NCBI GenBank assembly: GCA_015066445.1
Contig: SVOK01000015.1
Location: 1 to 44,736 of the forward strand
From: Oscillospiraceae bacterium
Lineage (GTDB): Bacteria > Bacillota > Clostridia > Oscillospirales > Acutalibacteraceae
Length of the DNA stretch: 44,736 nt
Direction: 5' to 3'
Notes under the pieces: generated by a model
The model's database searches: none
The model's input: only the letters and a program-made list of their open reading frames with translations
What the model was told of the DNA's origin: nothing
Shown: positions 2 to 29,700 of the stretch, one piece after another
Numbering within the stretch: position 1 is the first letter of the stretch
How the letters are laid out: each line of letters starts with the position of its first letter
Made by a program: the position numbers and the translations under genes

Positions 2-946
2 GCATTACTTACTATAGAACGCATTAATAATTTAAGACTTCCGAGTATCATTTCTAAAATGGGCGAGGTTGAGGTTTGGAGTGCCGAGGATATTGGCGCA
101 GATGTAAATAAATGCGGTCTTAAGGGCTCTCCTACAAGAGTGTTGAAAACTTTCGAGAATGAATCGGGCAAGAGAAAATGTAAGTTTATTTCTTTTGATG
201 TGCTTAAAAGCGCTATAGATGAGGGCTTAAAGAAAAACAAAGAAAAGGTTACGGTTTCTGCTACTTCAAATGCAAAACTTTCAAAAGTTTGTATTGTTGG
301 TGAAGCGCCACGTTCGTTTGCAGAAACGGTAAGTGATGATATTACCGTTTTACCTTTAACTAATGCTGATGATTTAGCCGAAAAAATAACTGAACTTGAG
401 CCTAATGCTGTACTTTGGGGAAGTGATTCACTTTCCAAAAAGCTGTCGGCTCAGGTCGGAGCGATGTTAGGGCTTGGCCTTTGTGCTGACTGCACCTTGC
501 TTGAAACTGACGGTGAAAAATTAATGATGTACCGTCCAGCCCTCTCGGGCAGTATTATTGCTAAAATTGAAAGCCTTACTACACCCGCAATGGCGACTGT
601 AAGAACCACTCAAGCAGGCGGCGATATAGTTGTAGCGGCAGGCTGGGGAGCAAAGGATAGCCTTGAAAAGATAAAAGCCTTTGCAGATAGCATAAATGCT
701 GATATGGCAACCACAAGAAAAGCGGTTGATAATAATATTCTGCCGTATAGCTTGCAGGTGGGACTCACTGGAAAAACTGTAAGTCCGCCCGTTTATATTG
801 CTATCGGTATTTCGGGCGCAGTGCACCATATTGTCGGTATGCAACAAGCAGGAACGGTTATTGCTATTAACCCCGATAAAGATGCTCCGATTTTCGATTA
901 TGCCGATTATGGAATTTTAGCAAATATAGAAGATTTTGATATATAA
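2..946 (+). CDS. Fused electron transfer flavoprotein, EtfB C-terminus joined to EtfA (5' partial)
   Basis: The frame is open from base 2, so the N-terminus lies outside the window; the ATG at 59 is internal. The first ~60 residues match the C-terminal part of an ETF beta subunit: an NNLRLPSI segment, then EVEVWSAEDIG and LKGSPTRV. Without a stop the protein continues into an ETF alpha subunit: a shortened N-terminal domain (SKVCIVGEA onward), then the FAD-binding domain with RPALSGSI, QVGLTGKTVSPPVYIA, GISGAVHHIVGM and AINPDKDAPIFDYADYGI. The FAD signature normally has QH where this has HH. ETFs carry electrons between acyl-CoA or related dehydrogenases and membrane or ferredoxin partners in the cytoplasm. 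Separate EtfB and EtfA are usual, so the fusion is notable. It ends at a terminator just downstream; the upstream partner gene is not visible. Confidence 0.85.
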   Translation, partial: ALLTIERINNLRLPSIISKMGEVEVWSAEDIGADVNKCGLKGSPTRVLKTFENESGKRKCKFISFDVLKSAIDEGLKKNKEKVTVSATSNAKLSKVCIVGEAPRSFAETVSDDITVLPLTNADDLAEKITELEPNAVLWGSDSLSKKLSAQVGAMLGLGLCADCTLLETDGEKLMMYRPALSGSIIAKIESLTTPAMATVRTTQAGGDIVVAAGWGAKDSLEKIKAFADSINADMATTRKAVDNNILPYSLQVGLTGKTVSPPVYIAIGISGAVHHIVGMQQAGTVIAINPDKDAPIFDYADYGILANIEDFDI

Positions 947-950
947 ATAA

Positions 951-987
951 AAAAGACTTATGACAGCTGATTTGTCATAAGTCTTTT
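951..987. terminator. Bidirectional intrinsic terminator
   Basis: A perfect 15-bp stem (AAAAGACTTATGACA, 951-965, pairing with 973-987) with a 7-base loop is flanked by A and T runs on both sides. It lies between the convergent etf gene and the GDSL lipoprotein gene and can serve both. Confidence 0.9.
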
Positions 988-1000
988 TTGATTTAATTGG

Positions 1001-1729: not shown

Positions 1730-1774
1730 AGTTTATTCCCCTATAGTTATTAGAAGTGGCAGGAAAAAATTTCA

Positions 1775-4700
1775 TTACTTTTCAAGCAACTGTTTTCTAA
1801 GCACTGTTAAATCTGCTGAATTAATTGCACGGTTGCCGTCAGCATCGGTGTTTGAAAATGCAATATCATCAGTAAGATTTGCTAAATATTTTTTAGCTCT
1901 TATAAGGTCTCTGACATCGGTATGGGTATCTTTGTTAGAGTCGCCTGAGGTTATGGGGCTGAATTCATAATCAACATCAACAGCGCCATCGGGCATAGTA
2001 AAGCTATAAACAGCATCGGTGTCCCAATTGGTTTTACTAAGCATAAGATTAACAGTAGTTCCGTTTTCTAAGGTTGCGGTTATTTTATTGATGTTAATAT
2101 AAAAACCGTCCTTAGCGTGCAGGGTCAAATCAATATTTTTGCCAACAGCTGATTTTTGAATATTGGCAGCGGCGTTGCCGTTTTGACATTTAATATTGAC
2201 CGAATACTCGGTTTCGGGGATTTTATTAATTTCAAAATTTTCAATAGAGGCATATCCGTTAGAGAAGGTGCCTATTCTTCCGCTTTCGTAATAAACACTG
2301 TAGTCTTTATTCATACCGTAATCAGGGTTATCAAGTACCCAATTATAGGTGGACGAAAGGGAAGGCTTATCCGCTCTGGTTACGGTTACGGTCATTTTAT
2401 TTCCAATTACAGTAATATCAAAATCAAACTTTAGCCTATAAGCTGCGGTTTTATCGGTAATATCGGAAAGTAGATTTGTATCTGAATAAGACTGATTTCC
2501 TAAATTTGCAGTTGTAATTCCGTCTGAATTTGTGCCGTATTTTGTAAGGTTAATTACTATCTTATTTGCGGCGTGAGTGCTTGTTTTTTGCAACATAATT
2601 GCATAGCCCGAAAGTCCCGGTAAGCCTTTTCCCGAGCTTACCACTAAAGCTTTTCCAACTCTGAAAGCAATACCGGCCTGAATGCCTCCGCTTGTTTGAG
2701 TAATTCCAATTCTTGCTTTGGCGGTGAAATCGGCAATATTTTGAGCCGCTTGGTCCTTTACAAGTAACTTGGAAACACCTGTGGGGATATTAATTGTACC
2801 GTTAGTGGTTGAAAAAGAACGGGTTGAAGGTAAAATTTGCTCGTAGCTATCAAGGCAGTTAAGATAACCGTAATCACTTGCAAGACTTGCAGATGAAAGA
2901 TATGGAGTAACCTTCATATTTGCAAAGGTGACACGTGAACCGCAGTTTACAAAAAGACCAATTCTTCCGCTGTCTATAGTGTCAGCAATGCTTGTTACTA
3001 TGGTTTGGTTAGCAATACTTATAGCTGTATTTGGGTCATTTTTATTGTAAGCTGTTGCGTTTACAATATTTCCTATACAGGAAAGCTCTATTACATAAGT
3101 ATCGCCGGGAATATAGGGGAGAGTGCTGTCTGTTTTTTTGATTTCATAGTTAGTAGATGATGTCGAGCTTTCGGTTTTGAAGTAGTACCTTGAAAGCTGT
3201 AATTTGACTTCGCTGCCGGAAGCGAGTAGCATACAACGATAGCCGTCAAAGGAGCAAACATTTGATGTATAATCGAGCATTTCACCGATATGGAACAAAA
3301 TTCCTGCGTTGATGCCGGTTTCATCTTTAACAGGTACAGAAGGGTTGTGAGCATTTTCGTGAGCGGCAGCAGGAATGATTTCAACACTTGATTTGAAATC
3401 TGCAATATTACTGAATTCTCTTCCCGAAACAAAAAGTCGTTTATTTCCTCCTGCACGGCAGGTTGTAATAACATTTTCGTATTCCGGGTCATCTACAAAC
3501 GGCTCACTGCTGAACCAATATTTATCGAAATCACCGAAATCATTAAAGGTATATTCCTTTCTGTATTCGGGATTTTGAGCTAGCGGCTCTGCGGTATAGG
3601 GCCTTATAACAGCAGACTTTTGAGACGTTGAGTTTTTGCTGTCCTGTGTTTCCCAAGCGGTATCGGCGTCAGCCTCGTTCCAGATATCAACTCGGTCAAG
3701 ATATCCGCCTCTTGTAAAAGCTCCATTGTGGGAAACAGTAATGGTATTTTCGCCTTCCTTGAGGTCAATATTATTTAAATCGTAATAATAAAAATTATCA
3801 ATATCGCTTGAATTACCGCCAAGCTTTCGGGTGTATTCTGTTCCGTTTACGGTAACAGTAAATCCCGATATAGTTGAACTACTTCCTGAAGCCAATAACG
3901 ATACAGTATATTTTCCGCTTTTTTCTGCGTTATAAGTAAAGGTTGCGGCTGAGCCTTTGGTAGTGAGAATTAAATGAGCTCCGTCAGAATAATAATCGGC
4001 GGGGTGGGCGGTTGTACCGTCTGTGGCAGAAACTGATTTTGCTCCGCCTGTGAGTTTTGCGTTTTCAGCTTCAAGCTCGGTGCGGTCAATTATTGCTGTA
4101 CCTGAGGGGATTTGAATTAAATCAGCGGCATTTATAGGTTTTTCAAAGCAGGGAGTACCGTTATCATACCAATAAAACTGCTGTATTCGGATTTCTCTTG
4201 GATTAGTGGCTACATTTTCTCCACCACGAGCGTGATAAATGAGATAATATTCACTTTTATCAGGTGATGCTACAAATGAGCAATGACCTACAGAATAGGT
4301 ACTTTTTTCGGCGTTTGTCTGGAGTACCGGCTTATCTGTTTTTGTCCAGTCGTCAGCATTTAATGGGTCACCGTCTTTTTTAAGCGTGAGGAGTCCTAAT
4401 GAATAGGTGGAATCGTCAAATCGGTTTGCTGAAAATGCTATATTAAGGGTACTTCCGTCGGGAGAAATAAGTGCTTGCGGGCCTTCGTTTACAGCAGGTA
4501 TTACCGAATAGGTTTCGTAAGCATAATTAGGCCTTGAAAGCTCTACACGACTGCTCGAAATTGTATACGGGTCAGACATTTCTGCTATAAATATTCGTTG
4601 GTCAACGCTTGTATAACCGCTCCAGCCTGACCAAACGGCATAGAGCTTACCTTTCCATTTAAAAATGCTTTGGTCTATTGCCCAATGACCGGGCTTGATA

Positions 4701-5479
4701 TTGTATTCAGCGTTATTCCAGCCGTCATCATTTTTATAATCTTCGTCAACCTCTTTTAACTGTCCTTTAAACGTAAATGTGCTGTAAATATCCTCGGTTT
4801 CGCTTTCCAAAACATACATACGGTGGTTTGCAGGTCTGCCTGTGCAGCCGTTCCAAGCGGTTTCATCCTCTGTTTCACCGTCATAAATGGTGAAATATAT
4901 ATACCAATGTCCGTCAATAAAGTGAAGCTCAGGTGCCCAAAGCTCTTTAACAATACCGATATTGTTTTCCTCGCTTACAAGGTCATTCATATTGAAAACT
5001 GAAACGGGGTTGCTGTTTACACGCTCAAGCTCACGTGAACGGGAAACATAAAAGGCGTTGCCTGTTACCATATAATAATACCAACCGTCGTGATATGTAA
5101 CCCAAGGGTCACCGCCAAGGTTAATGAAATGACTTTTGAAAGTGTTATTGTCATAAACATTGATTTTATGCTCGGTTACAGTACCGTCCGAAAGAGAAGT
5201 GAGGGTAACAAATCCTTTATATCCGTTATCTCTTGTGGGCTGTGTAATAAGGGCAGAATATAAAGAATTATCGTAGCTACAGGAAAGAACAGGTAGGTTT
5301 TCTAAAGAATGGGCGGTATAAATATACTCGTTATTTTGGTCGCCAAATATTCTTTCACCGTTCATAAGTATACTTATTTCTTCGGTTTTTTCTGCTACTT
5401 CGGCTATTGCTGTTAAAGGTATTCCAATAGTAGTTAAAATGGCAGTTGAAATAATCAGAGATAATAATTTTTTAAGCAT
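1775..5479 (-). CDS. Secreted multidomain GH43 glycosidase with CBM, two repeat modules and C-terminal dockerin
   Basis: The 1234-residue protein has a type I signal peptide (about 1-26) and a GH43 five-bladed propeller (~85-455). The three expected catalytic acids are present: Asp124 in GGDPWV (base), Asp269 in WAIDQSIF (pKa modulator) and Glu332 in NEGPQAL (acid), with WAPEL at 181. A CBM6/35-like beta-sandwich follows (~465-600, from ELEAENAKL to YLDRVDIW). Then come two copies (~635-860 and ~870-1086) of a module also found in two other proteins of this window, a bacterial repeat-like domain (~1090-1174) and a dockerin (1178-1234) with two calcium loops, DSNKDTHTDVRD and DADGNRAINSAD. GH43 enzymes usually act on arabinan or arabinoxylan; an arabinofuranosidase or arabinanase role is inferred. 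The dockerin implies docking to a cohesin scaffold encoded elsewhere. The start is supported by AAGGAG 8 bases upstream. Confidence 0.88.
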   Translation of the reverse strand: MLKKLLSLIISTAILTTIGIPLTAIAEVAEKTEEISILMNGERIFGDQNNEYIYTAHSLENLPVLSCSYDNSLYSALITQPTRDNGYKGFVTLTSLSDGTVTEHKINVYDNNTFKSHFINLGGDPWVTYHDGWYYYMVTGNAFYVSRSRELERVNSNPVSVFNMNDLVSEENNIGIVKELWAPELHFIDGHWYIYFTIYDGETEDETAWNGCTGRPANHRMYVLESETEDIYSTFTFKGQLKEVDEDYKNDDGWNNAEYNIKPGHWAIDQSIFKWKGKLYAVWSGWSGYTSVDQRIFIAEMSDPYTISSSRVELSRPNYAYETYSVIPAVNEGPQALISPDGSTLNIAFSANRFDDSTYSLGLLTLKKDGDPLNADDWTKTDKPVLQTNAEKSTYSVGHCSFVASPDKSEYYLIYHARGGENVATNPREIRIQQFYWYDNGTPCFEKPINAADLIQIPSGTAIIDRTELEAENAKLTGGAKSVSATDGTTAHPADYYSDGAHLILTTKGSAATFTYNAEKSGKYTVSLLASGSSSTISGFTVTVNGTEYTRKLGGNSSDIDNFYYYDLNNIDLKEGENTITVSHNGAFTRGGYLDRVDIWNEADADTAWETQDSKNSTSQKSAVIRPYTAEPLAQNPEYRKEYTFNDFGDFDKYWFSSEPFVDDPEYENVITTCRAGGNKRLFVSGREFSNIADFKSSVEIIPAAAHENAHNPSVPVKDETGINAGILFHIGEMLDYTSNVCSFDGYRCMLLASGSEVKLQLSRYYFKTESSTSSTNYEIKKTDSTLPYIPGDTYVIELSCIGNIVNATAYNKNDPNTAISIANQTIVTSIADTIDSGRIGLFVNCGSRVTFANMKVTPYLSSASLASDYGYLNCLDSYEQILPSTRSFSTTNGTINIPTGVSKLLVKDQAAQNIADFTAKARIGITQTSGGIQAGIAFRVGKALVVSSGKGLPGLSGYAIMLQKTSTHAANKIVINLTKYGTNSDGITTANLGNQSYSDTNLLSDITDKTAAYRLKFDFDITVIGNKMTVTVTRADKPSLSSTYNWVLDNPDYGMNKDYSVYYESGRIGTFSNGYASIENFEINKIPETEYSVNIKCQNGNAAANIQKSAVGKNIDLTLHAKDGFYININKITATLENGTTVNLMLSKTNWDTDAVYSFTMPDGAVDVDYEFSPITSGDSNKDTHTDVRDLIRAKKYLANLTDDIAFSNTDADGNRAINSADLTVLRKQLLEK

Positions 5480-5539: not shown

Positions 5540-5544
5540 AAATT

Positions 5545-6640: not shown

Positions 6641-8665
6641 ATGAAAAAAGTATTAGCACTTGTTCTCAGCGTAGCACTTGTTTTAAGTGTGGTAATTTTA
6701 CCCACTGCTACATTTGTTTCAGCCGAGACAGAAGACACCGCACTTTCTTTTAGTAATGCTATTACGGTTTTGGGCAACGAGCTTAATCCGAGAGCAATCA
6801 GAACAAAAGAATTGAGTGACGGAACAGTTGCCGCTGTTTATTACAGATCGGGTAAGGGCGTTTACTACGCAACAAGCACTGATGGCGGTATTACATTTAA
6901 GAACGAAGTTGAGCTTATCGGCAACGCTACTGATAGTGAGCTTGCGGCGACCGAGATTGCTGAGGGTGAAACCGCTTCAACTCAGGTTGCTTTAGCTAAA
7001 GATTATGTTGCTGAATACGGTCAATACGGACGTGGCAGACTTGAAGCACAGAATCCTAATCTTATTGAATTAAGGGACGGTAATATTGCTGCTTTTTATC
7101 GCTACAATACATATACAAGTGCTCCTGACACCAAGCCTTGGAGCATATATTATGCTTCTATCTGCTATCAGATTCTTGATAAAGAGACGGGTGTTTGGGG
7201 CGATGTTCAGGTAATGGTTGATGCTTGTAACAATAAAGAAATTACAAGTGCAGATTCTGATTACGGTTTCTGGGAGCCTGATCCTGTTTATATAGGCGAT
7301 GAGCTTTTCTGCTATTATGCAGATACATATACACCAAATAATCTTTCGCAACAGCATATTATGTACTGTGTTTTTGATGAGGATACCGGAAAATTCGGTG
7401 CTCCTGCAATTGCACAGAACGGTACCGAGCACACATCACGCGACGGTATGAGCGTTGTGACAAAGCTTTCTGACGGTACATACGCAATGGTATTTGAGTC
7501 TACAAAGACCAACAAAGAAAATACCGAGGATTATATCACATTCGTAATCAAAATGTCTTTCTCTAAGGACGGTAAAAACTGGACCGATCCTGTTATAGTT
7601 GCAAAGCCTGATATTGAAATTCGTGATTGCGCAATAAATGATGTTACCAATACAGAGTATGCAGTTTGCGCATCTCCTTATGTTGTAACACTTCCTGACG
7701 GCAGACTTGCAATTTCTTATCAGACAACCGACCGCTTTAATGGAAGAACACCTAACCGTGTGTCCTACAGAGTTGGTACTCAGGTTGCACTTTCTTCACA
7801 GGTTATCACTTATGATACATTTGCAAACAACACAATAAATGACGATGTTACATCATATTTTGCAACTGAATTAAATCCTGGAATACTCGGTGAAAATGAG
7901 TTTTCAAAGTCCGCTCAGCTTATGATTAAGGATAACAGACTTTTTGTTTATTATGGTATAGGTGCTAATGAGTGGGACGGAGACACAGTTAAAAATAATT
8001 TTGGCGCAATTAATATGGCTTATCTTCAGTTGCCTGAGGAAACCGAAGCTGTAGATTATACAAATCTTGATAACTATATTGTTTATCAAGCTGATAAAGC
8101 TGGTACGGCTCCTACTGATGAGAACGGTGTGATTACAATAGCTTCTCCCGGTACTACAAATCTTGTTGCAGGTACAGGCGCAGTTGAAAATGTAGTAAAC
8201 GATGTTGAAGCTGAAGGCTTGTTTACTGAAGAAAATTATACCGGATACAATGATACCCATAAAGGCCGTTTTTCATTTGACGAAGACACATCCACGGTTA
8301 CAGTATCAAGCGTTGCTAAGGCTTATTATAATAAGGATACTGCTTTGACAACATACAAGGTTTCTTCTGTTCTTGAAAGCTTTTATACAAAGAGCGGCGC
8401 AAGAAACGGTTATATGCAAAGCGGTTATATTATTCATGCTGCTACAGGCGATGATTTTAAGGCGGCTGCATTCAATTCAAGCGGCTATGTTATATTCTTA
8501 AGGCGTACTACAGAGAATTTAAATAAACTTGAATTATGTATGAGATATTGTAATGGTGCGACTGCGGTAACTTATCAGATGGCTACATTGAGCAGCTCTT
8601 TGGATACAACTAAGGCTGACTACAAGTTCAGACTTGATGTTGAAGTACAGAGGATAATGCTATAA
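6641..8665 (+). CDS. Secreted GH93-like (sialidase-fold) exo-arabinanase candidate, N-terminal part of a frameshifted gene
   Basis: The signal peptide (about 1-28, ending FVSA) is followed by a sialidase-type propeller (~32-450) with Asp-box-like STDGGITF and SKDGKNWTD. The segments WEPDPVYIGDELFCYY (Glu212) and SRDGMSVV...AMVFES (Glu286) recall the GH93 exo-alpha-1,5-L-arabinanases. From memory of that family, its two catalytic glutamates sit about 72 residues apart, close to the 74 seen here. The assignment fits the arabinan context but is not proven; a generic BNR/sialidase-like protein is the alternative. The C-terminal ~200 residues begin a repeat module that is cut short: the frame meets TAA at 8663 while the module continues in another frame. 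GGAGGG precedes the ATG at good spacing. It is divergent from the araC-type gene. Confidence 0.75.
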   Translation: MKKVLALVLSVALVLSVVILPTATFVSAETEDTALSFSNAITVLGNELNPRAIRTKELSDGTVAAVYYRSGKGVYYATSTDGGITFKNEVELIGNATDSELAATEIAEGETASTQVALAKDYVAEYGQYGRGRLEAQNPNLIELRDGNIAAFYRYNTYTSAPDTKPWSIYYASICYQILDKETGVWGDVQVMVDACNNKEITSADSDYGFWEPDPVYIGDELFCYYADTYTPNNLSQQHIMYCVFDEDTGKFGAPAIAQNGTEHTSRDGMSVVTKLSDGTYAMVFESTKTNKENTEDYITFVIKMSFSKDGKNWTDPVIVAKPDIEIRDCAINDVTNTEYAVCASPYVVTLPDGRLAISYQTTDRFNGRTPNRVSYRVGTQVALSSQVITYDTFANNTINDDVTSYFATELNPGILGENEFSKSAQLMIKDNRLFVYYGIGANEWDGDTVKNNFGAINMAYLQLPEETEAVDYTNLDNYIVYQADKAGTAPTDENGVITIASPGTTNLVAGTGAVENVVNDVEAEGLFTEENYTGYNDTHKGRFSFDEDTSTVTVSSVAKAYYNKDTALTTYKVSSVLESFYTKSGARNGYMQSGYIIHAATGDDFKAAAFNSSGYVIFLRRTTENLNKLELCMRYCNGATAVTYQMATLSSSLDTTKADYKFRLDVEVQRIML

Positions 8666-10848
8666 TCAATGTTTACGATGTTACTGACGGTTCTGCTACT
8701 AAGTTTGGTTCTACATATACTTGGGCACTTGATTACACTTCCGTAAAGGCTAATGCTCCTGTATATAGCACTGGTGCTTTTGCATTTGTTACTAACGGCG
8801 CTACAACATATTCTGATTTCACATTGACACAGCCTGTTACAACTAAGGTTGATACAACTGTATTTGAAAAGGCTCAAAATCTTAACGCAAATGCGGTGTT
8901 CAATTTAGCTGATACAGTGCCTGGTGGTAATCTCTATGCAGGATTTAATTTCCATACACAGGAAGCTGCAGCTGTTACAGCAGGACTTTCGGGTTATACA
9001 GTTAAATTATTACAGACATCAGGAGATTTATTAAAGCTTGAATTTTCTGTATACGAGCTCAATGAAGATAAATCGAAATGCACTAACTTGAAATCGTACG
9101 CTGTTGATATTACAGAAGCTGTTATCGGTGCGGGCGGAACAACCGCAAGCGCTAAGATGATATTAGATGTTACTGTTATTGGTGATAAAGTTACTGCAAC
9201 CGTAACTAATTCCGGTAATTTAGCATTAACTCACATTCAGGAATATGATTTGAATAATTACTACACCTATGCTGAATATGGTAAGGGCGGTTACGGTATT
9301 TATAAGCATGGTACAGGTACTATTTCTGTAGAAGATGTAGATTTCACTGTTATACCGCTTGATGTAGAGAATATTGACGATACACTCTATACCATTTATG
9401 CACCTGATGAGAGTGCAGGAATTGTATACGAAGACGGCAAATTTGTTTCTAATGATGCAGTTGCTAAGAAAATGATTCTTAATGATACTGTAGTATCTGA
9501 TTTCTCAGCTGATGCTACACTTGAAATAGGTTATGACGGTCAGCTTAAAGCAGGTATAATCTTCCGTGCACAGAATATCGGTAACGATACTGACGCTATG
9601 GAAGGATATTCTGCAGTTCTTTGGAAGAATGAAAACGGAACAGGCAATTTTGGCAGAGTATTACTTCTCATTTACAAGTGGGGTAAAAATGCTGAAGGAG
9701 AAACTGTATATCTTGGTGAAGTTGGCAGACTTGATGACCGAACAACTCTTAATAAAGTTTATCCTAAGGCTCAGACAAGTATTTTAGATGCAGCTGGTGC
9801 ACATCTTAAGATTAATATCAAGGTTGACGGCGATGTTGTAAGAGCAAGCTTTGATGTTCTTGATGAATACAATGAAATTGCGGCTTCTTCGGAAACCAGA
9901 TCATTTATGTTAAACAAAGAGTTTGATAAAGAAAATATAAATACCTATTACGAGTCGGGTGCTATCGGTCTTTCAATCAGCTCCGCAGGCGCTGTTTGTG
10001 ATTTTAATATCACAGAAAGCGTTATGGGTAAAGAAATGTCTGTTATGTCGGATTATACTGTATATTCTAACGACGATAATACCATGACAATTGACTCTTC
10101 TGTAAATAAGAAGATGTATTCGACTACAAAGGGACGTAAGCAGGCAGTTCTCAAAGGCACTCCTTTAACTAACTTTGAGGCAAGCGCTATATTAAAGAGC
10201 AATACCGCAGGCGAAGTTTACAATATGGGCTTTGACTTTATGATTAATGAAGATACCCATTCTGGCTATGCTTATAATACTACTCACGAGACTATGGGTT
10301 ATGAGGGCTATAGAGCAGTTCTTGTGCGTAATACTAATTCAAGTGCTAATCCTGCTGGCGCAGTTCTTTATCTGTTTAAGTTTACTAAGGACGAGAGCGG
10401 TTATACTCGTTCTGAGGTTAAAAAGGTTGCTAATGCAGACTTCTTTGCCGACTATACAACCGCTGATACTACCGATAAGGAGTATGCAGAAGTAGAGGTT
10501 GAACTTAACGTTAAACTTGTTGACGGCAATCTTACAGCGGTTGCTACAATGTGCGAATATCCTGAAAGAACCATTACTTTGACCACTGAAGGTCTTGAGG
10601 GTTCAGGTTCTGTAGGTTGGTTTATCAGCGACCAAGGCTCTGTTTCACAGATTTCCGTAAACAGCGTTGTTACAGAAGGTGACCTCAATGCTGACGGTAA
10701 TGTAAACAGTAATGACCTTGCAATTATGCGTAAAGCAATATTGGGAATGGAAAAAGTTGGTCTTGTTATCGGTGATGTATCTGTTAAGGATAGAGAAATC
10801 GACATTCGTGATATTGTAAAGCTTAAAAAACTTGCAGCAGGTATTTAA
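8644..10848 (+). CDS. C-terminal part of the same frameshifted gene: repeat modules and dockerin
   Basis: This frame is open from 8644. The first ATG, at 8824, has no ribosome binding site and lies inside a module, so this is not an independent gene. Translation from 8653 (DNAIINVYDVTDG) continues exactly the module interrupted at the end of the preceding frame; a single lost base between 8644 and 8662 explains the shift. Three more module copies follow (roughly 8824-9360, 9361-10020 and 10021-10680), with recurring LKAGIIFRAQNIG, EGYSAVLWK and LLLIYKWG. The C-terminus is a dockerin: the first calcium loop DLNADGNVNSND is canonical, while the second (VSVKDREIDIRD) lacks acidic residues at positions 1 and 3. 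The intact protein would be about 1,400 residues and secreted. Confidence 0.8.
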   Translation, partial: STEDNAIINVYDVTDGSATKFGSTYTWALDYTSVKANAPVYSTGAFAFVTNGATTYSDFTLTQPVTTKVDTTVFEKAQNLNANAVFNLADTVPGGNLYAGFNFHTQEAAAVTAGLSGYTVKLLQTSGDLLKLEFSVYELNEDKSKCTNLKSYAVDITEAVIGAGGTTASAKMILDVTVIGDKVTATVTNSGNLALTHIQEYDLNNYYTYAEYGKGGYGIYKHGTGTISVEDVDFTVIPLDVENIDDTLYTIYAPDESAGIVYEDGKFVSNDAVAKKMILNDTVVSDFSADATLEIGYDGQLKAGIIFRAQNIGNDTDAMEGYSAVLWKNENGTGNFGRVLLLIYKWGKNAEGETVYLGEVGRLDDRTTLNKVYPKAQTSILDAAGAHLKINIKVDGDVVRASFDVLDEYNEIAASSETRSFMLNKEFDKENINTYYESGAIGLSISSAGAVCDFNITESVMGKEMSVMSDYTVYSNDDNTMTIDSSVNKKMYSTTKGRKQAVLKGTPLTNFEASAILKSNTAGEVYNMGFDFMINEDTHSGYAYNTTHETMGYEGYRAVLVRNTNSSANPAGAVLYLFKFTKDESGYTRSEVKKVANADFFADYTTADTTDKEYAEVEVELNVKLVDGNLTAVATMCEYPERTITLTTEGLEGSGSVGWFISDQGSVSQISVNSVVTEGDLNADGNVNSNDLAIMRKAILGMEKVGLVIGDVSVKDREIDIRDIVKLKKLAAGI

Positions 10849-17558: not shown

Positions 17559-17570
17559 GTGGTGACTGAT

Positions 17571-19604
17571 ATGAAATATAAAAAATTGCTAAAAACAGTT
17601 TTGGCAAGCCTCTTACTGATGACCGTGTTATCAATATCTGCATTTGCTAATACTGCTTATAAAACTATCACCGTAGATAAAAACGGAGATTATATAGAAA
17701 CGCAAAATGCCTATAATCCGGTTATGACTATTGAAAAAATTGATAATGAGATTTTAAGCAAGCCGGGGGATATGACAATAAGCGGTGAAAAATTGTATAT
17801 TGCTGATACAGGCAATAAACGAATAGTTATTTCTACTCTTGAGGGTAGCCTCATTTCGGTTATCAGTTCTGAGTTTTTAAAACAGCCCTGCGGTATATTT
17901 GTCGCAGAAAACGGTGAGATATTAGTTGCTGATATGGAAGCCGAGGCGGTGTTTGCCTTCACAGAGGACGGTGTACTTCAAAACAAATATGAAAAGCCAA
18001 CTTCTGTGCTTTACGGCGAAAAGGAAAGCTTTATTCCTTTAAAGGTGGCGTGCGACGGTAACGATAATCTTTATATTTCCTGCAAGGGTAATTCAAACGG
18101 TATTGTTCAGATTTCCCGCAGTACGGGCGAATTTTTGGGTTATTTCGGCGCAAATGAGGTTACCATCAGCCTTTGGGATAGGTTTTTGGATTCCATCTTT
18201 ACCGAGGAGCAAAAAAGTCAGCTTCAACAAACTATACCGGCATCAATAAGCAACCTTACAGTGGATAGCACAGGCATAGTTTATACAATGACCAATATCG
18301 AAACAGATCAGGTTATCCGCAAGCTTAATATGTCGGCTAATGATATGCTTAAAACTGATATTTCTTTCCCGAGTCCGAGTGACCTTACCATAGGAAGTAT
18401 TGGTAACATATACGCATCTACAAGCAACGGATATATACTTGAATTCAACAGCGAGGGTGATTTGCTCTTTATATTCGGCGGCTTTGATGACGGTAGTCAG
18501 CGCATTGGTCTTTTCAGCACTATTTCCGCAATAGCTGTTACAGAGAACGGAAGACTTTATGTTTTAGATGATACAACAGGTCAAATTCAGACCTTTGAGC
18601 CCACAGAATTCACAGAAAACGTTCATACTGCTTTGGCACTTTATCAGGACGGTAAATACATTGAAAGTAAAGAGCCTTGGGAAAAGGTTTTGCTTATGAA
18701 CAACCTGTTCGATTATGCTCATAAGGGTATTGCTGAGTCTTATTATATGGAAGAAAATTATGCCGAAGCGATGAAGCATTTTGAGCTTTCCAATGATAAG
18801 GAGGGTGTTTCAAAGGCATTTACCGAGCTTAGGAACGCAGTTATCAGAAAAAATATTTTCTGGATACTCGGTATAGCGGTAGTAGTTTTAGGCGGCGGTT
18901 ATGTTTTACTTATGCTCCGCAGAAAAACCAAGGTTTTGGCTCCTGCGGGTGAGGTTATCCGTAAAGTTAGCGATAAACCGCTTTTAAATCAGCTGTTCTT
19001 CCTTTTTAAAATTCCTAAAAACCCGATAGACGCTTACTACGGTATTAAACGTGAAAATAAAGTGTCTGTAAAATCGGCAACAATTCTTTACAGCATTTTT
19101 GTTGTGATTTATCTTGCTGATAAATATTTAAGGGGATATATATTCTCCACAATTACAGTGGGTCAGTATTCGGTAATTAAGGATGCTGCAGTAATTTTAG
19201 GTATATTAATACTTATAATTCTTGCTCATTACTTGATTTGCTCTATTACCGAGGGTGAGGCTTCGCTAAAGAATGTTTACTGCGCTATAGTTTATTCTTT
19301 AATGCCTTATATTATTTTAAGACCTGTAGTAATTATTCTTACACACATTCTTACTGACAGCGAAGTTTTCATAATAAACTTCCTTAATGTAATTATTTAT
19401 GTGTGTACAATAGCATTGCTCGTGGTTATGGTAAATGAGCTTAATAACTACAAAGCATCGGAAACTGTAAAGTGCATTTTCTGGACCCTGTTTGCTTTCT
19501 TTGTGGCTATTGTAGTTTTATTTATTCTCTATGTTATGACCAAGCAAACTGCTGAATTCGTAGTTCAGATCTGGAGTGAGGTGATATATCGTGTCCAAGG
19601 TTAA
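17571..19604 (+). CDS. Secreted-propeller/TPR/YIP1-family membrane protein
   Basis: The ATG at 17571 is preferred over the in-frame GTG at 17559, because AAGTGGTG lies upstream and the signal peptide (KKLLKTVLASLLLMTVLSIS) follows directly. The ~677-residue protein has an extracellular NHL-type beta-propeller (~40-355; PGDMTISGEKLYIADTGNKR is a typical blade). One or two TPR-like repeats follow (~360-420, ALYQDGKYIESKEPW), then a membrane helix (~440-460). A C-terminal multi-span YIP1-type domain contains KIPKNPIDAYYGIKRE and five or so hydrophobic helices. From memory, similar genes accompany giant solute-binding proteins and DUF5696 genes in other Firmicutes sugar loci. No activity is established; an accessory or sensor role in the importer is inference. 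It overlaps the next gene by 14 bases. Confidence 0.8.
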   Translation: MKYKKLLKTVLASLLLMTVLSISAFANTAYKTITVDKNGDYIETQNAYNPVMTIEKIDNEILSKPGDMTISGEKLYIADTGNKRIVISTLEGSLISVISSEFLKQPCGIFVAENGEILVADMEAEAVFAFTEDGVLQNKYEKPTSVLYGEKESFIPLKVACDGNDNLYISCKGNSNGIVQISRSTGEFLGYFGANEVTISLWDRFLDSIFTEEQKSQLQQTIPASISNLTVDSTGIVYTMTNIETDQVIRKLNMSANDMLKTDISFPSPSDLTIGSIGNIYASTSNGYILEFNSEGDLLFIFGGFDDGSQRIGLFSTISAIAVTENGRLYVLDDTTGQIQTFEPTEFTENVHTALALYQDGKYIESKEPWEKVLLMNNLFDYAHKGIAESYYMEENYAEAMKHFELSNDKEGVSKAFTELRNAVIRKNIFWILGIAVVVLGGGYVLLMLRRKTKVLAPAGEVIRKVSDKPLLNQLFFLFKIPKNPIDAYYGIKRENKVSVKSATILYSIFVVIYLADKYLRGYIFSTITVGQYSVIKDAAVILGILILIILAHYLICSITEGEASLKNVYCAIVYSLMPYIILRPVVIILTHILTDSEVFIINFLNVIIYVCTIALLVVMVNELNNYKASETVKCIFWTLFAFFVAIVVLFILYVMTKQTAEFVVQIWSEVIYRVQG

Positions 19605-21821: not shown

Positions 21822-22799
21822 ATGAACAACAAAGTGAAACGCAAGAATTTAAAAACCCGCCTTTTCGGTCGAGAAGCTAATTGGTATGCTTACATATTCT
21901 TACTTCCCTGGATAGTAGGAATCGCACTTTTGGTTATCCGTCCGTTAGTTCTCGCAATTTATTATTCCTTCTGTGAGGTTGGAATCACAGGTAGAGGAAT
22001 AAGCAGCGAATGGATAGGCTGGAAAAACTTTCAGGATATATGGGTAAGGGACATAAACTTCATCGACCAAGAGCTTTCGTTCCTTATAAAGGTTATACTT
22101 CAGGTTCCCATAATTGTTATTTTTGCTCTGCTTGCGGCGTTAATGCTTAACACTAATTTAAAGGGTAAGGGAATATTCAGAACAATATTCTTTTTGCCGG
22201 TAATAGTAGTAAGCGGCCCGATTATTAACGAGCTTCAGGGTCAGGGTGCTACGGCGGTTTCAACCTCTGACCAGATGATAGTTAATCAGGTTATTTCCTC
22301 TTTTCTTCCTGAATGGTTGGTTGAGCCTATATCAGGGCTTTTTGCTCAGCTGATACTTATTCTTTGGTACTCAGGTATTCAAATAATAATGTTTTTGGCA
22401 ATACTGCAAAAAATTGACCTTAATATGATAGAGGCCGCAAAAATAGATGGCGCTACAGGCTGGGAAATTTTCTGGAAGATAACCCTGCCGGCTATCCGTT
22501 CAATTATTCTTCTCAACGCAGTTTATACCTTGGTTTATCTGGCAAATTCAAGCAGTAACGGCGTTATAGATCTTATATCCAGAGCAATGATTAAAACCAG
22601 AGGCTACGGCTATGCCTCATCAATGGCGTGGATGCATTCGATTGTGGTGCTTGTTTTACTTGGCCTTATCTTTTTGCTTTTAAAGAACAAGCCTGATCAG
22701 TTCTTAAAGAACCAAAAGCGTAAGGCAAAGGAGCAAAGACGCCGTGAACGGGAAAAGAGGAGGTGGCTTGCTGATGCAGAAAAACGTGCTGATGCGTAA
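21822..22799 (+). CDS. Carbohydrate ABC transporter permease (MalF/UgpA type), second pair
   Basis: The 325-residue protein starts two bases after the DUF5696 stop, with a GGGGAGGCGGAG site upstream. Membrane helices begin at YAYIFLLPWIVGIALLVIRP, and the coupling loop is EAAKIDGATGWEIFWKITLP. A charged C-terminal tail (KRKAKEQRRREREKRR) extends into the cytoplasm, and its coding region overlaps the next permease gene. It belongs to a second importer pair distinct in sequence from the first; the two pairs may recognise different chain lengths. Confidence 0.92.
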   Translation: MNNKVKRKNLKTRLFGREANWYAYIFLLPWIVGIALLVIRPLVLAIYYSFCEVGITGRGISSEWIGWKNFQDIWVRDINFIDQELSFLIKVILQVPIIVIFALLAALMLNTNLKGKGIFRTIFFLPVIVVSGPIINELQGQGATAVSTSDQMIVNQVISSFLPEWLVEPISGLFAQLILILWYSGIQIIMFLAILQKIDLNMIEAAKIDGATGWEIFWKITLPAIRSIILLNAVYTLVYLANSSSNGVIDLISRAMIKTRGYGYASSMAWMHSIVVLVLLGLIFLLLKNKPDQFLKNQKRKAKEQRRREREKRRWLADAEKRADA

Positions 22800-23751
22800 C
22801 AGTGATGAATCGGTATTAAAATACCGAAAATCAAAAATCAAACGCTTCCTTTTTGGCTCGTATGAGAACAGCGGTTTTTTGGTAAAGCTGGCACTATATT
22901 TCGTTTTGATTGTTATCAGCTATATTTACCTCTTTCCGCTGATAACAATGCTTGTCACAAGCTTTATGTCAGTTGATGATCTTGTAAATGATTCTGTTCA
23001 CTGGATTCCCACAAAGCTTGTACTTGATAATTTTAAGCAGGCTTTTGAGGTTATGGATTTTGGCAATACTATCTCGGATACATTGCAGTTGTCCGTACTG
23101 CCGTCCCTTTGTCAGGTTGTGATATGCTGCTTTACTGGATACGCCTTTTCCCGTTACCGCTTTAAGGGTAAGGCAATTTGCTGGGGGTTACTAATTCTCA
23201 CATTTGTATTGCCCTCGCAGGCTACTATGATTCCAACATATCTGATTTTTAATGAAATGGATATTATAGGAACAGTCTGGGCGTTTGTTTTGCCTGCGGT
23301 TTTAGGTCAGGGTTTTAAAAGCACAATTATAACGCTGGTATTTTATTTGTTCTTTAGTCAGATTTCTACCTCGCAGATAGAGGCAGCCTCTCTTGACGGA
23401 TGCGGACATTTTAAGGTGTTTTTCTATATTGCACTTCCATGTGTCGGAGCGGCATTTATTATAGGCTTCCTGTTTTCACTTGTCTGGTATTGGAACGAGA
23501 CCTATCTTACTAATATGTATATATCCAACTCAAATATAGGTCACGACCATTCAATGACAACGCTTCTTGTAAAGCTGACTCAGTTTGAAGCGGCGTATAA
23601 GCTGCTTAATGAGGGTGAGGGTGATAACACACTTAACGAGGCTATAAGAATGGCGGGTACAGTAATTTGCATAACTCCTCTGCTTACAGTTTATTTCATT
23701 TTACAGAAATACTTTGTACAGAGTGTTGATATGGTAGGCTTAAAGGATTAA
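22774..23751 (+). CDS. Carbohydrate ABC transporter permease (MalG/UgpE type), second pair
   Basis: The start is placed at ATG 22774 (MQKNVLMRNSDES), with GAGGAGG at 22757-22763. A TTG at 22768 is possible but too close to that site. The gene overlaps the previous one by 26 bases. The ~325-residue protein has helices starting at VKLALYFVLIVISYIYLFPL, and its coupling loop reads EAASLDGCGHFKVFFYIALP. With the preceding permease it forms the second membrane channel. An 85-base gap follows before the next gene, the largest gap in the operon so far. Confidence 0.9.
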   Translation: MQKNVLMRNSDESVLKYRKSKIKRFLFGSYENSGFLVKLALYFVLIVISYIYLFPLITMLVTSFMSVDDLVNDSVHWIPTKLVLDNFKQAFEVMDFGNTISDTLQLSVLPSLCQVVICCFTGYAFSRYRFKGKAICWGLLILTFVLPSQATMIPTYLIFNEMDIIGTVWAFVLPAVLGQGFKSTIITLVFYLFFSQISTSQIEAASLDGCGHFKVFFYIALPCVGAAFIIGFLFSLVWYWNETYLTNMYISNSNIGHDHSMTTLLVKLTQFEAAYKLLNEGEGDNTLNEAIRMAGTVICITPLLTVYFILQKYFVQSVDMVGLKD

Positions 23752-23836: not shown

Positions 23837-25189
23837 ATGAAAATTGTAAAAAAATTGGTTTGCCTTTTGTTATCGGCTTGTATGCTCTTAGCAGTTGCAG
23901 GTTGTGGCGAAAAAGAGGACGGGGATTCAAACAAAATCTCCAAAGAGGGTAGAGATATTACTCTTCGCTTTGCTGCCTGGTTTGACCGTGATTTACAGCA
24001 GCATCTTGCAAATGATTTTATGGAAGCTCACCCTACAGTTTATGTAGAGCTTGTTGAAATTGATCAGAATTCCTGGAGCTCAGGTCTTCAGAACTTGGCA
24101 TCAACAGGTGACCTTCCGGATGCTTTCTGTACATTTGATTTAGCAACAGCAACAGCAAACGGTTGGACTCTTGATATTACAGAATATTACGATGCTGACC
24201 CTACCACTCAGAAGATTTCTGAGGGTCTTAAGGTAGCAGGTGTTTATAATGGCAAGCGTTATGGACTTGTTACAGAGCAGTATCCTAATGTTGTTTTAAT
24301 CAATAAGACATTATTTGAAGAAAACAATATAGCTCTTCCCGGTTATGACTGGACAATTGACCAGATGTTTGATTTGGCCACCAAGCTTACCAAAGCTAAT
24401 GAGCATCAGTATGGCTTAGGCGATAATGTTCTTTCATATTTGCGTGATGTTTATGATGCCGCATATTCAACTGACAGATGGCAGTATGGATATAATCCCG
24501 AGACAGGTACATTCAATACTGAATATTTGGCAAAGGGTTATTCAAAGGGCCTTGAGCTTCTTGGTAATCAGATAGCAGGTAACCCCACAGCAGACCAGCT
24601 TAAAGAGTGGTTTGGTGACCCCGATATCTGGCTTCCGAAAACCGGTAAGCAGGCTATGCAGCTTGATTGGTACTGGACAATTCAGACCGTTAAATCTGAT
24701 GAATATGTAAACTTAGGTCAGGAATGGCTTGTTTATCCCTTCCCAGTAGGTTCTTCAGGACGTGTGCAAACAGTAGTTAACGTTGGTTGCGTTGCAGATA
24801 CAACCGAAGAGCCTGAGCTTGCTTATGAGCTTTTGAAGTTTATGACCTTTGGCGAAGATGGCTGGAAATCACGTTATGAGTGGTATAAAAAGAATACTCT
24901 TCCCGCATCAGTTCCGATTGTGAGCGATGATGAAATTCTTGATTTGGTTAAGGAGCTTACCCCTGGGGAAGATTATGCCGCAGTTTATGATTCTATCAGC
25001 CGCAGTGTTGCTGATATTAAGAAATGGGTTCCCGGTCTTACAGAATATGAATCCTGGATGAACTCACAGAAGCTTTGGACACAGCTTCGCAATTCTTCAT
25101 TAAAGGTTGAGGACGTTTCGGGACAAATGGAACAGAAGCTTAATCTTTATTACTCAGAGTGTATGAACAAAATTAAAGCCCGCGGATAA
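23837..25189 (+). CDS. Solute-binding lipoprotein of the second sugar ABC importer
   Basis: The 450-residue protein has a lipoprotein signal with lipobox LAVAGC (Cys23) and a conventional family 1 solute-binding fold: ITLRFAAWFDRDLQQHLAND at the start, LYYSECMNKI at the end, and aromatic residues such as WYWTIQTV that could stack on sugar. It would feed the permease pair just upstream. AAGGAGG precedes the ATG. The 85-base gap before it has no clear promoter or hairpin, so it is probably part of the same transcript. The substrate is inferred from neighbours to be arabino-oligosaccharides. Confidence 0.9.
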   Translation: MKIVKKLVCLLLSACMLLAVAGCGEKEDGDSNKISKEGRDITLRFAAWFDRDLQQHLANDFMEAHPTVYVELVEIDQNSWSSGLQNLASTGDLPDAFCTFDLATATANGWTLDITEYYDADPTTQKISEGLKVAGVYNGKRYGLVTEQYPNVVLINKTLFEENNIALPGYDWTIDQMFDLATKLTKANEHQYGLGDNVLSYLRDVYDAAYSTDRWQYGYNPETGTFNTEYLAKGYSKGLELLGNQIAGNPTADQLKEWFGDPDIWLPKTGKQAMQLDWYWTIQTVKSDEYVNLGQEWLVYPFPVGSSGRVQTVVNVGCVADTTEEPELAYELLKFMTFGEDGWKSRYEWYKKNTLPASVPIVSDDEILDLVKELTPGEDYAAVYDSISRSVADIKKWVPGLTEYESWMNSQKLWTQLRNSSLKVEDVSGQMEQKLNLYYSECMNKIKARG

Positions 25190-25215: not shown

Positions 25216-26763
25216 ATGAAAATACTGATTAGAGTTTTATCCGTCTTAATGTGTCTTGTGCTTACAGCCGGAATTTTCACCGGCTGTAGCAAGGAGAAGC
25301 ACAAGAAAATTGACGGACTTTTAGAGGATTACGATTACTATGTAATCCGCAATAAAGCAAGCGGTTTGGTGCTTGCTGCCGATGATTTCGGTATGGCAGA
25401 GGGTGCTAAGGTTAAAATGCGTAAATATGACGCAAAAGAGCAGGACCTTAGTATGATCTGGCGTGTGGTAGCTGTGGATGCTTCTTCTTACAGATTACAG
25501 AATATGGCTACCGAGGACAGATATTTATCTGTTAAACGTGATTCCAAGAAAAACGGCGCTATTATGTGCCTTAACACTTTAGGTGAGAGTGACGGTCAGA
25601 TTTTCGAGCTTGAAGCCGATGAAAAGTCAAAAGACGATAAGAGCTACCGCGTGTTCTCAAGACTTACCGATTTTTGTCTTGAGCCGCAGGACGGTATCTC
25701 AGATGAAGAGACCGACGCTATTCAGAACTATTTGCCTTACGGTAAGGATGTTGATTATCAGGTTTGGGAGTTTGAGCGTGTTGGCGACGGTAATATAGAT
25801 TTACCGCAGATGATAAGCGTTTCAGGCGACACACAGCATTGGTCCTGTCCTGAGATATATAATTACGATGGTACTTACTATGGCTTTATAATGTCAGCAG
25901 GTATAGCTATTAAAACCTCTAAGGATCTTAGAGAGTGGACTAAATCAGGAACCGTATTCCCAACAACCAGTTCATTGGCTTATGAATGGATGTCAAATCC
26001 TGTAACAGGTGTTGAGGGCGGCTCTATATGGGCACCCGGTATTTACAAAATAGGCGATACATATTGTGTATACTACTGTATTTCTACCTCGGGTAGCCAG
26101 AATTCACTTATAGGTCTTGCTACAAACACCACCCTTGACCCTAAGGATAAGGATTATAAGTGGGTGGATAAGGGCTGTGTGCTTCATTCTTACACAGGCG
26201 AGGATTATAACGCTATTGACCCGAATGTTATTATTGACGATGACGGTCAACCTTGGCTTGTATACGGCTCTTATTGGAGCGGTATCAAGATGCGTAAGAT
26301 AAATAAGGAAACTCTTATGCTTGATGAAGAGGAAACAACAAGGTATGACTTAGCTGCTGCTCAGACCCGTAACGGTCCGGAAGCTGGCTATATGATAAAG
26401 CACGGCGATTATTACTATCTGTTTGTTGCCTGCGGTTCTTTCTCAACAGGTTATTGGAACGGTGTGGGTCGTAGTAAAAGTGTTACAGGACCTTTCCTCG
26501 ATGCCGACGGCAACGATATGATGCGTCAGGGAGCTACTGCGGTTAACTCTTACAGAGACGGCTTCACAAAGTGCGGTCACAGTTCTGTAATGACCGATAC
26601 CGATGGCTCTCAGTATCATGTTACCGAGTACTTTAAAACCTATGACGACGGAAGCTCATCACCCAGCCTTTTGAGCATAAGTCAGCTTTATTGGACCGAG
26701 GACGGCTGGCCCGTAACGGCTACAACTCCCGGTGTTCTTGATAAGCTTTCCAAAAAGAAATAA
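25216..26763 (+). CDS. Lipoprotein with ricin-type lectin domain and GH43 arabinanase-like domain lacking the usual catalytic base
   Basis: The signal with lipobox IFTGC (Cys24) anchors the 515-residue protein outside the cell. Residues ~40-195 form a ricin-type beta-trefoil (YYVIRNKASGLVLAADD, repeated QDLSMIWRVV and DYQVWEFERV). Residues ~205-510 match GH43 endo-1,5-arabinanases: GIAIKTSKDLREW, NAIDPNVIIDDDGQPWLVYG (Asp335), SYWSGIKM, VGRSKSVTGPFLDADG. In the first blade, where the family has HDP with the base Asp, this has WSCPEI, placing Cys211 at that site. WAPDI is WAPGI, and the acid Glu motif EAP is altered to GPEAG (Glu389). It may be a poor enzyme, an altered enzyme or an arabinan-binding lipoprotein. 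It follows the binding-protein gene by 26 bases. Confidence 0.82.
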   Translation: MKILIRVLSVLMCLVLTAGIFTGCSKEKHKKIDGLLEDYDYYVIRNKASGLVLAADDFGMAEGAKVKMRKYDAKEQDLSMIWRVVAVDASSYRLQNMATEDRYLSVKRDSKKNGAIMCLNTLGESDGQIFELEADEKSKDDKSYRVFSRLTDFCLEPQDGISDEETDAIQNYLPYGKDVDYQVWEFERVGDGNIDLPQMISVSGDTQHWSCPEIYNYDGTYYGFIMSAGIAIKTSKDLREWTKSGTVFPTTSSLAYEWMSNPVTGVEGGSIWAPGIYKIGDTYCVYYCISTSGSQNSLIGLATNTTLDPKDKDYKWVDKGCVLHSYTGEDYNAIDPNVIIDDDGQPWLVYGSYWSGIKMRKINKETLMLDEEETTRYDLAAAQTRNGPEAGYMIKHGDYYYLFVACGSFSTGYWNGVGRSKSVTGPFLDADGNDMMRQGATAVNSYRDGFTKCGHSSVMTDTDGSQYHVTEYFKTYDDGSSSPSLLSISQLYWTEDGWPVTATTPGVLDKLSKKK

Positions 26764-26778
26764 GAAAGGAGTAAATGT

Positions 26779-29700
26779 ATGAAAAAGCTATTATCGATAT
26801 TTACTATCCTTGCTGTGATTTTATCTTGTGTAGCTACTGTGTTGCCAACAGCCCTTGCGGCTGACGGTGAAGCCTTTACTAATCTTTATAACGAAGATTA
26901 TTATACAGTTCGCCATAACAAAACCACAGGAAAAATAACCTTTAATTCTGAAAAGGGAACTATGCTTACAACCGATAATCAGTCCAAAGCGATGATTAAT
27001 TATTCTACTGATATGACAACGTTTGATGCTTCTATCAACGTAATGGGTAATGACCTTTCGGATTCTCCTAACTACGGTCTTATCTACGGCGGTCTGTTTT
27101 TTCACGCTGATGCTAATGATTTTAATAAAAGCACATTTTCTTTCAATACTACAGGTTATTCGGCAATAATCAAGCGTTCTGCCAGCAGTTTAGGCAGCGC
27201 TACTCTTATGATACGCTATGTATCAAATAATTCTAACAAAAAAGAATTGACCACAAACTTTACAGTACCCGCTCAGCAAAAATTGGTATTAAAGCTTGAG
27301 CTATCTGTTACTGATACAGAATTCACTGCAAAGGTTAAAAGCGCTGACGGTGCTACCGAGTATGCAAGCAAAACATATCCGCTTGATAATACCGCTTCAT
27401 ATCCTGCTACAGCGGCTTATTACAGTGGTGGCTTAGGCTTCTTATCCAACGGTAGACATACTTATTCCAACTTCAATGTAACTTCTTATGACGATTCAGT
27501 TACTATTCCTCCTGAGGAGGGTGCAGCAACTCCTCCTCCCGCACCAACTGACCCGTTAGCTGACAAATATAATGTTTTTGGAACAGTTAATACAGACGCA
27601 GATAATTTCACTGCTACTGAAACCGCTATTTCCAGAGTTCTTTTGAAGAACACCGAAAATACCACCGATTTCAGCGCCGATTTAGTTCTTAAAACTGATG
27701 CTTCTGCAGGTCTTAAATCGGGTATAATTTTCCGTGTCAAGAGCGCTGGTACATCTACAGATGATATGCAGGGATATTCTCTTATTGCTCAGAAGATGAC
27801 TTCGGGTGAGGATAAGGGTAAAATAAGACTTTACCTTTATAAATACGGCGAATATAACGGAGCTAATGCCTATCTTGGAAGAATTGCTTATGTGGCGCAG
27901 GATTTCGGTACTGTTACAGCTAATCAGGAATTCACAGTGCATATAAATGTTGTTGGCGAAAGAATTGAGGCTTATTGCTACGAAACTGCAAACCCCTCAT
28001 TGAAAAGTGAGCTGTTAAAAGCTTCTTTAAAGGATGCTACCGAAAGCGCCAAAAACAATCCCAACATTTATTATGAAAAGGGTAGTGTTGGTGCTTATAT
28101 CGCTACAGGTTCTGTAAAGGCTGTTGATTTCAAAGTTAATGAAGCCGAAACTATGAGCCCTGAGCCTATAATTCCTGCTACAGGCACTCCTGCAACTGAC
28201 GATAAAATCGGTTCTGCTGTAAAGGGTGGCTCTACGGTTGTTTCCAATGTTAACGAAAGTAATATCACAGCTCCTACTGTTGACGATTTAGAGTCATATG
28301 CAGCTGATTTTGATAATTACACCTATTATTCCTCCTCCACTTCAAATAAGCTTTTGCGTACAGAAGATGGACTCACCTCAACTACTACAGGTGCTAAGCG
28401 TGCTATTTTAGACGGTGTCACCGTTAAGGGCTTCCACGCCGCAGTTACTATGAAGATAAGCGAAGAGGGAACTCTCAGAAGCGGTATGGTTTTCAGAGTA
28501 AATAATATTGAAAAAAGTCTTGAAGAAAACGGTACATTACCTGCTAACAATATTCAGGGTTATGCTGCTATTCTTTATAAAACTAAGGGCACAACCGAAA
28601 GCCACGCCCGAGTTGTTATCTGTATTTATAAATACGGTTATAAGAAGGGCAAATACCAGTATCTTGGTACTGTTGCTTCTAAGGCGAGTGAGGTTCCGCT
28701 TAAGGGCTTTGAAAAGGATCAGTTTGCTTCTGCGGGACAGGAGCTCACCCTTGATGTAAATGTAATCGACGATGAGCTCACAGCTTATTATTACAATGCT
28801 AATAATCCATCGCTTGTAAGTGAAAAATTGGTTACAAAATTAACTGCAGAAACTGATATAGAAAAGGGAACACCCTCACTTAAGGGCATTCATTATGAGA
28901 GCGGTGCTATCGGTCTTACAGCCACAGATTATGTCACATTCACTAACTTTACTGTAAGCGAGCCTGTTTATCCTTCAAACGAAATCGGTAGTCTTTCCTC
29001 TCTTGATAGCTATACCATTTATGGTAGCGGTGTAAAGCAGGAGGGTGAATATATAACCGCTAATACATCGGGTACTAAAAAGCTTATTGTAAATAATCTT
29101 ACAGTTAAGGATTTCACTGCTTCTGTTGATATGACAATTGATAACAACGGCAACCTTAAATCGGGCTTCTTCTTCCGTGTTAACGAGGTTGGTAACGGTG
29201 CTGATGACCAGACAGGTTGGGCTATAATTGTTACACGTAACTATGCAACTAACGGCGATAATAACCCCAACCGTATAGATATAGTTCTCTTTAAATGGGG
29301 CTATTCAAACGGCAAGCTTTCCTATCTTGGTGAGGTTGCACGTGAGGTTTACAAGAGCGGCGCCTCATTTATGGACGGCAAAATGGCTGGCGAGGAGCTG
29401 ACATTTGTGGTACAGGTTAAAGGCGCTGCTATAGATGCTTCGCTTTATCACAAGGCTAATCCCAAGAACAAGCCTGTAACATTCTCAACAAACCTTAAGT
29501 TTGCGGCCAGCAAAGAAAAAGGCGATGTGGCTTATTGGGAAGCAGGCGGCATAGGCCTTTATCTCGGTAACTCGGTAAGTGACCCGCTTAACTATAACCG
29601 TGTACGTAATTTCCACATTAACGATGGCTCAGGTGTTTTGGTTAAGAATACAAAAGCCGGCGGCTTAGCTAAGCTTAAGGGTGTTCTTCCAATAACCGGA

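Follow-up and report, generated by a model that had tools for sequence, protein, structure and literature searches.

We analysed a 44,736-nucleotide stretch of DNA from an Oscillospiraceae bacterium (contig SVOK01000015.1 of assembly GCA_015066445.1; hereafter the window), in which ten related modules of about 190–230 residues each are spread over three proteins (Table 1). Two modules belong to a glycoside hydrolase family 43 (GH43) protein with a dockerin, four to a frame-broken GH93-like protein, whose first copy is cut in two by the break, and four, here called m1 to m4, to an enzyme-free wall-anchored protein.

Results

The modules and the proteins that carry them

The copies were scored with leave-one-out profiles, which served as an independent test because the other scoring profile includes nine modules of the window. 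All ten copies scored 30.0–128.8 bits, the lowest being the split copy, which was scored by its first piece only, and the best shuffle reached at most 9.4 bits (200 shuffles per copy). Searched against the bacterium's own genome, the nine-copy profile gave nine matches, every one within the window, and the tenth, split copy, which is no row of that profile, matched it through its first piece with an expectation value (E) of 3.2e-8. An earlier interpretation made from the letters alone (the sequence-only reading) had proposed ten copies split 2/4/4 over three proteins, and these scores bear it out; the range it gave from position 640 should begin with the first module, at 2201.

The strand and turn motifs that it had noticed are present in the module alignment as G-x-x-F-R, G-Y, K-Y/W-G, Y-x-S-G-x-x-G and N-F-x-V, and the modules form tandem strings joined by short linkers. 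One strand column is aromatic in all 39 modules compared (tyrosine in 27, tryptophan in 8, phenylalanine in 4), and the adjoining column has lysine in 25 of them; the aromatic residue, at position 103 in m4, is a candidate for a stacking site. No column holds an invariant acidic, basic or histidine residue, the best polar column being an arginine present in 28/39, which speaks against a common catalytic centre. The modules might be thought to be enzymes like the catalytic members of Pfam family PF06439 (3-keto-disaccharide hydrolases and a DUF1080 endo-glucanase), as that family is named for an enzyme and a DUF1080 endo-xanthanase is described in excerpts of PMC10881899. Since none of the 39 carries an invariant polar residue, and since in the proteins examined the modules adjoin other catalytic domains or form strings, this reading was set aside as very improbable.

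The seven solved-structure matches of the GH43-dockerin protein were GH43 xylosidases, arabinofuranosidases or unnamed GH43 proteins. The N-terminus of the GH93-like protein resembles a signal peptide when read by eye, and the sole solved relative of its catalytic part at E ≤1 was the exo-arabinanase 3a71 (E 0.002). When two orthologues were added to the query, 3a71 was matched at E 0.0015 and a GH43 chain came next at 0.45; because this match is weak and a GH43 chain follows it, the name GH93-like is tentative. The frame changes inside the first module (window 8601–8824), either genuinely or through an assembly fault; in the related genomes G304 and G303 the orthologous reading frame is unbroken, encoding 1479 and 1642 residues respectively and four modules in each case. 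Ahead of module 1, residues 478–525 (window about 8072–8215) resemble, by eye, the beginning of one more module that is truncated.

The C-terminus of the wall-anchored protein, read by eye, carries LPITG, a hydrophobic stretch and a basic tail, and two sortases are encoded in the same genome, so that an LPXTG-like motif, hydrophobic stretch, basic tail and genomic sortase, as expected of a sortase-anchored wall protein, are all present. The motif itself varies, reading SPMTG, SPITG and SPVTG in three counterparts (L023, L024 and L052; by eye). The genome also holds 13 dockerin matches, two of them below cut-off, and four matches to cohesin, of which two are marginal; with cohesins and two sortases encoded, cellulosome docking and wall anchoring are both possible. 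The occurrence of the modules on enzymes as well as on an enzyme-free surface protein, a further point of the sequence-only reading, is supported. Modules were also seen in G304 on another contig (L051, 6343–9831), where a GDSL esterase is joined to three of them and an InlB-type repeat.

Table 1. Module-bearing proteins, their modules and neighbouring genes, in window coordinates (pLDDT, predicted local distance difference test; pTM, predicted template modelling score; SBP, solute-binding protein)
Feature	Coordinates	Strand	Evidence
GH43 enzyme with two modules and dockerin	1775..5479	-	Pfam GH43 E 2.6e-32; dockerin E 1.3e-6
GH43-dockerin protein module 2	2201..2866	-	left-out profile 93.6 bits; 207 bits with profile including module 2
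GH43-dockerin protein module 1 (fold-predicted copy)	2879..3541	-	left-out profile 41.9 bits; AlphaFold2 pLDDT 77.8, pTM 0.81
GH93-like catalytic part of broken gene and start of first module	6641..8665	+	BNR_2 24.7 bits, below cut-off 31.4
GH93-like protein module 1, first piece (remainder in another frame)	8219..8653	+	28.1 bits; 30.0 bits for slightly longer piece
GH93-like protein module 2	8803..9375	+	left-out profile 46.6 bits
GH93-like protein module 3	9370..10029	+	left-out profile 104.2 bits
GH93-like protein module 4, then dockerin	10033..10689	+	left-out profile 47.6 bits; dockerin E 9.6e-5
Two ABC permeases	21822..23751	+	BPD_transp_1 E 2.4e-8 and 3.4e-14
ABC importer SBP	23837..25189	+	SBP_bac_8 E 4.1e-13
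Endo-1,5-alpha-L-arabinanase with ricin-type lectin domain	25216..26763	+	GH43 E 1.6e-46; RicinB_lectin_2 E 4.4e-15
Enzyme-free wall-anchored protein, four modules and sorting signal	26779..29820	+	PF06439 31.6 bits
Wall-anchored protein m1 (most wall-distal)	26881..27507	+	left-out profile 41.7 bits
Wall-anchored protein m2	27556..28155	+	left-out profile 104.4 bits
Wall-anchored protein m3	28297..28977	+	left-out profile 128.8 bits
Wall-anchored protein m4 (most wall-proximal)	28990..29643	+	left-out profile 104.7 bits
Alpha-L-arabinofuranosidase, GH51-type by C-terminal domain	29817..31328	+	Alpha-L-AF_C E 7.1e-46

Relationship to PF06439 and CBM66

In the Pfam scan the whole wall-anchored protein passed the PF06439 cut-off (31.6 against 26.8 bits) and its G303 counterpart scored 49.9 bits; in the other three reading frames (P0001, P0002 and P0003) no PF06439 match was found at E ≤1. 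None of 17 single modules scanned alone exceeded the cut-off, 5/17 matching at E ≤1 (best E 8.3e-4), and the only place found by a six-frame search of the genome at E ≤0.001 was m4, at 19.2 bits and below cut-off. Of five distant module-profile matches in the family sample, four were scanned; each proved to be a PF06439 domain carried by a GH127 or GH2 enzyme.

Five PF06439 domains were used as a bridge. Their profile gave 42.4 bits to a fragment of the CBM66 founder SacC, which was represented in direct comparisons by 119 residues, and up to 38.1 bits to the modules; 23 of the 39 modules exceeded every one of 780 shuffles (at most 8.0 bits) and one was level with the highest. Alignment of the modules with the five domains by hhalign gave a probability of 96–97% and scores of 67–70 (96.1% in a separate comparison), the best of 100 column-shuffled controls reaching a score of 19.1 and a probability of 1.4%. 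When an eight-domain profile, one row of which is a module of this subfamily, was searched against PDB, three CBM66 levanase chains came top (E 5e-10 to 7e-10) and the next match followed at 8e-4. Module profiles alone gave no matches in PDB sequence searches, and two single relatives gave one chance-level match and none; NCBIfam returned one irrelevant match only and PHROGs two weak ones. In a HMMER search with the modules the CBM66 founder was not among the five best rows, all of which were shuffles.

Profile bridges and one predicted model thus place the modules in the lectin-sandwich superfamily that holds PF06439 (formerly DUF1080) and CBM66, and they have the features of a lectin sandwich of the SacC type. 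Within it they form, by sequence, a divergent branch and are not CBM66, because direct comparison with the CBM66 fragment was no better than shuffles. The structural matches to thrombospondin and legume lectin were taken as a common fold, not as a function. The LamG/DUF1080-like beta-sandwich of the sequence-only reading is in line with Pfam, the fold model and the profile comparisons. It had recognised no named family, and this has to be corrected, since the wall-anchored protein passes the PF06439 cut-off and the superfamily holds CBM66. Its suggestion of a possibly undescribed module holds at subfamily level and fails at superfamily level, where PF06439 and the characterised binding family CBM66 are already known; to the extent that these tools can tell, both subfamily and ligand are undescribed, the novelty lying at the subfamily level only.

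Divergence of the modules

In a tree of the 39 modules and the five PF06439 domains, for which the program warned of one long outgroup branch, all 39 fell on one branch (support 100/100) and grouped mostly by position, not by genome. An exception is the m1 type: module 1 of the surface protein of G303 groups with module 1 of the GH93-like protein from that genome (97/80). The type as a whole occurs in the GH93-like proteins and the GDSL protein as well as in the surface protein (100/99). The grouping mostly by position dates most duplication and shuffling of modules among these proteins, as judged from the tree, before the split of the four genomes. The G303 surface protein has a fifth module, forming a sister pair at position two, on the wall-distal side.

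Among the window, L023 and L024, m3 and m4 are 66–86% identical, m1 and m2 41–48% (39–46% by BLAST), and three neighbour genes 80–91%; with G303 the values are 60–68% for m3 and m4 and 29–42% for m1 and m2. In the same three sequences replacement differences per site were 0.34–0.41 in m1 and m2, 0.10–0.22 in m3 and m4 and 0.06–0.13 in the neighbour genes, and synonymous differences were alike (0.57–0.73). The wall-distal modules therefore diverge much faster than the wall-proximal ones at similar synonymous divergence, which is a new observation. Since synonymous sites are near saturation, positive selection is not claimed, and relaxed constraint and diversifying selection are equally possible. 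Our reading is that the part near the wall is a fixed receptor and the outer part is freer.

These data bear on a possible spacer role, in which the modules, as stiff sandwich domains, would only lift active parts off the wall or set enzyme and dockerin apart. Tandem strings with short linkers would suit such a role, as would the fast drift of the wall-distal modules and the extra one found there in G303. However, between genomes m3 and m4 retain 60–86% identity and each position mostly has the same type of module, and in the wall-anchored protein nothing else is recognised that could be lifted; we regard a spacer role as improbable.

Genes of the locus and their distribution

Downstream of the two module-bearing enzyme genes lie a GH2 gene, two ATP-binding cassette (ABC) transporter sets, the endo-arabinanase, the wall-anchored protein, the GH51-type gene and a GDSL esterase. 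The best solved matches of the endo-arabinanase gene product were endo-arabinanases (E 6.9e-59), and a four-base overlap joins the end of the wall-anchored gene to the start of the GH51-type gene, in two relatives as well as in the window. By its gene content the locus looks like an arabinan-use system. Other genes of the window were noted as well. A 981-residue protein (12862–15807) has a solute-binding domain at residues 600–870, its first 600 residues being without a Pfam match at E ≤0.001; an NHL/Yip1 protein and a DUF5696 protein lie between the two ABC permease sets (17559–21819) and have counterparts in three other genomes; and a weak IS200-like transposase match, below cut-off, lies at 35315–35800.

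Within the stretches compared, four genomes from a single genus (that of the window, G303, G304 and G324) show conserved synteny of the cluster, the GH2 gene not being seen in the G303 stretch. In the genus sample 5 of 70 genomes matched, including the own genome and one weak match. Matching genomes numbered 5/300 in the family, 3/394 in the order and 3/391 in the class sample, with only weak matches beyond the own genome, which is counted in each of these overlapping samples. Public genome contigs scanned with the whole surface protein gave two loci among 32 candidate stretches.

Discussion

Homology, domain company and the locus suggest that the modules bind sugar. We consider it probable that they are non-catalytic carbohydrate-binding modules of a divergent PF06439/CBM66-type branch, which hold the enzymes on arabinan and, on the wall protein, hold arabinan at the cell surface. 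The two dockerin-bearing enzymes would be kept on arabinan in this way. The wall-anchored protein, to judge from its domains, is probably an enzyme-free arabinan-holding protein, whose string of modules would keep arabinan chains on the cell surface, next to the endo-arabinanase and to the binding protein of the ABC importer; we infer arabinan as the ligand and a hand-over to the importer. It would thereby serve as surface glycan-binding proteins do in Bacteroidota.

Several findings weigh against arabinan holding. A sugar-binding module without tryptophan is unusual, and tryptophan is absent from 19 of the 39 modules. With the five-domain bridging profile alone, 15/39 modules do not rise above shuffles, and hhalign of the 39 modules with the CBM66 fragment scored 16.2, four of 100 shuffles being higher (best 18.7). 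Proteins other than carbohydrate-binding modules, thrombospondin for one, have the same fold in the structure comparison. The GDSL-module protein of G304 lies near a dockerin protein and a GH3 enzyme; its five scanned neighbours include the GH3 enzyme and no named arabinan enzyme.

The ligand could also be another glycan, such as galactan or the rhamnogalacturonan I backbone, or the module types could bind different pectic side chains. The module types are position-specific, of old standing and have mostly stayed separate, the cluster includes genes for GH2 and a GDSL esterase, and ligands vary within the superfamily, because CBM66 members bind fructan ends or xanthan according to excerpts of PMC11002231. 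Nevertheless, the module-bearing enzymes look arabinan-directed, one of them weakly, and their neighbours are an arabinanase and an arabinofuranosidase, so we hold a non-arabinan ligand to be unlikely. A bolder form of the arabinan-holding reading, which we put forward with considerable doubt, would make the subfamily a new arabinan carbohydrate-binding module family and the wall protein a Gram-positive counterpart of surface glycan-binding proteins, the proximal pair of modules being a fixed arabinan receptor that feeds the importer and the distal pair being at liberty to change, either towards other pectic chains or so as to evade recognition.

Both feed and food contain pectin, of which arabinan is a side chain. 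If the modules bind arabinan, this would show how a dockerin-bearing gut bacterium keeps a soluble side chain near its importer, and it would add a new ligand to a superfamily with, in the excerpts cited here, two characterised specificities (fructan ends and xanthan). No proven arabinan-binding member of the superfamily was found in the open-licence literature among the matches listed, and the query 'arabinan-binding' with 'carbohydrate-binding module' gave no match in that literature. The title of a pectate-lyase paper reportedly already gives CBM66 a pectin role. In excerpts of the literature, SacC CBM66 binds levan (PMC8715580, PMC13003330), further CBM66 modules on a pectate lyase and an arabinanase are uncharacterised (PMC11002231), and an arabinan locus of Roseburia is listed (PMC5320581).

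Among known systems, the surface protein resembles Cter_2817 of Clostridium termitidis, described in excerpts of PMC4125193 as a cell-bound GH43 protein with several CBM66; Cter_2817 has enzymes and SLH domains, whereas the surface protein here has only modules and a sorting signal. Compared with CBM66 of the Bacillus subtilis levanase SacC (4azz, 4b1l, 4b1m), the modules are 14–15% identical, about 35–65 residues longer and arranged in tandem strings. The cut-off of PF06439 (3keto-disac_hyd) is passed by the wall-anchored protein as a whole and by its G303 counterpart, single modules scoring below it, and the 39 modules form one supported branch separate from the five PF06439 domains used. 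The surface glycan-binding proteins of Bacteroidota are alike in being enzyme-free multi-domain surface proteins encoded between depolymerase and transporter genes; the protein described here differs in its sorting signal of Gram-positive type, its ABC importer and its different modules, and its role is predicted from the genes.
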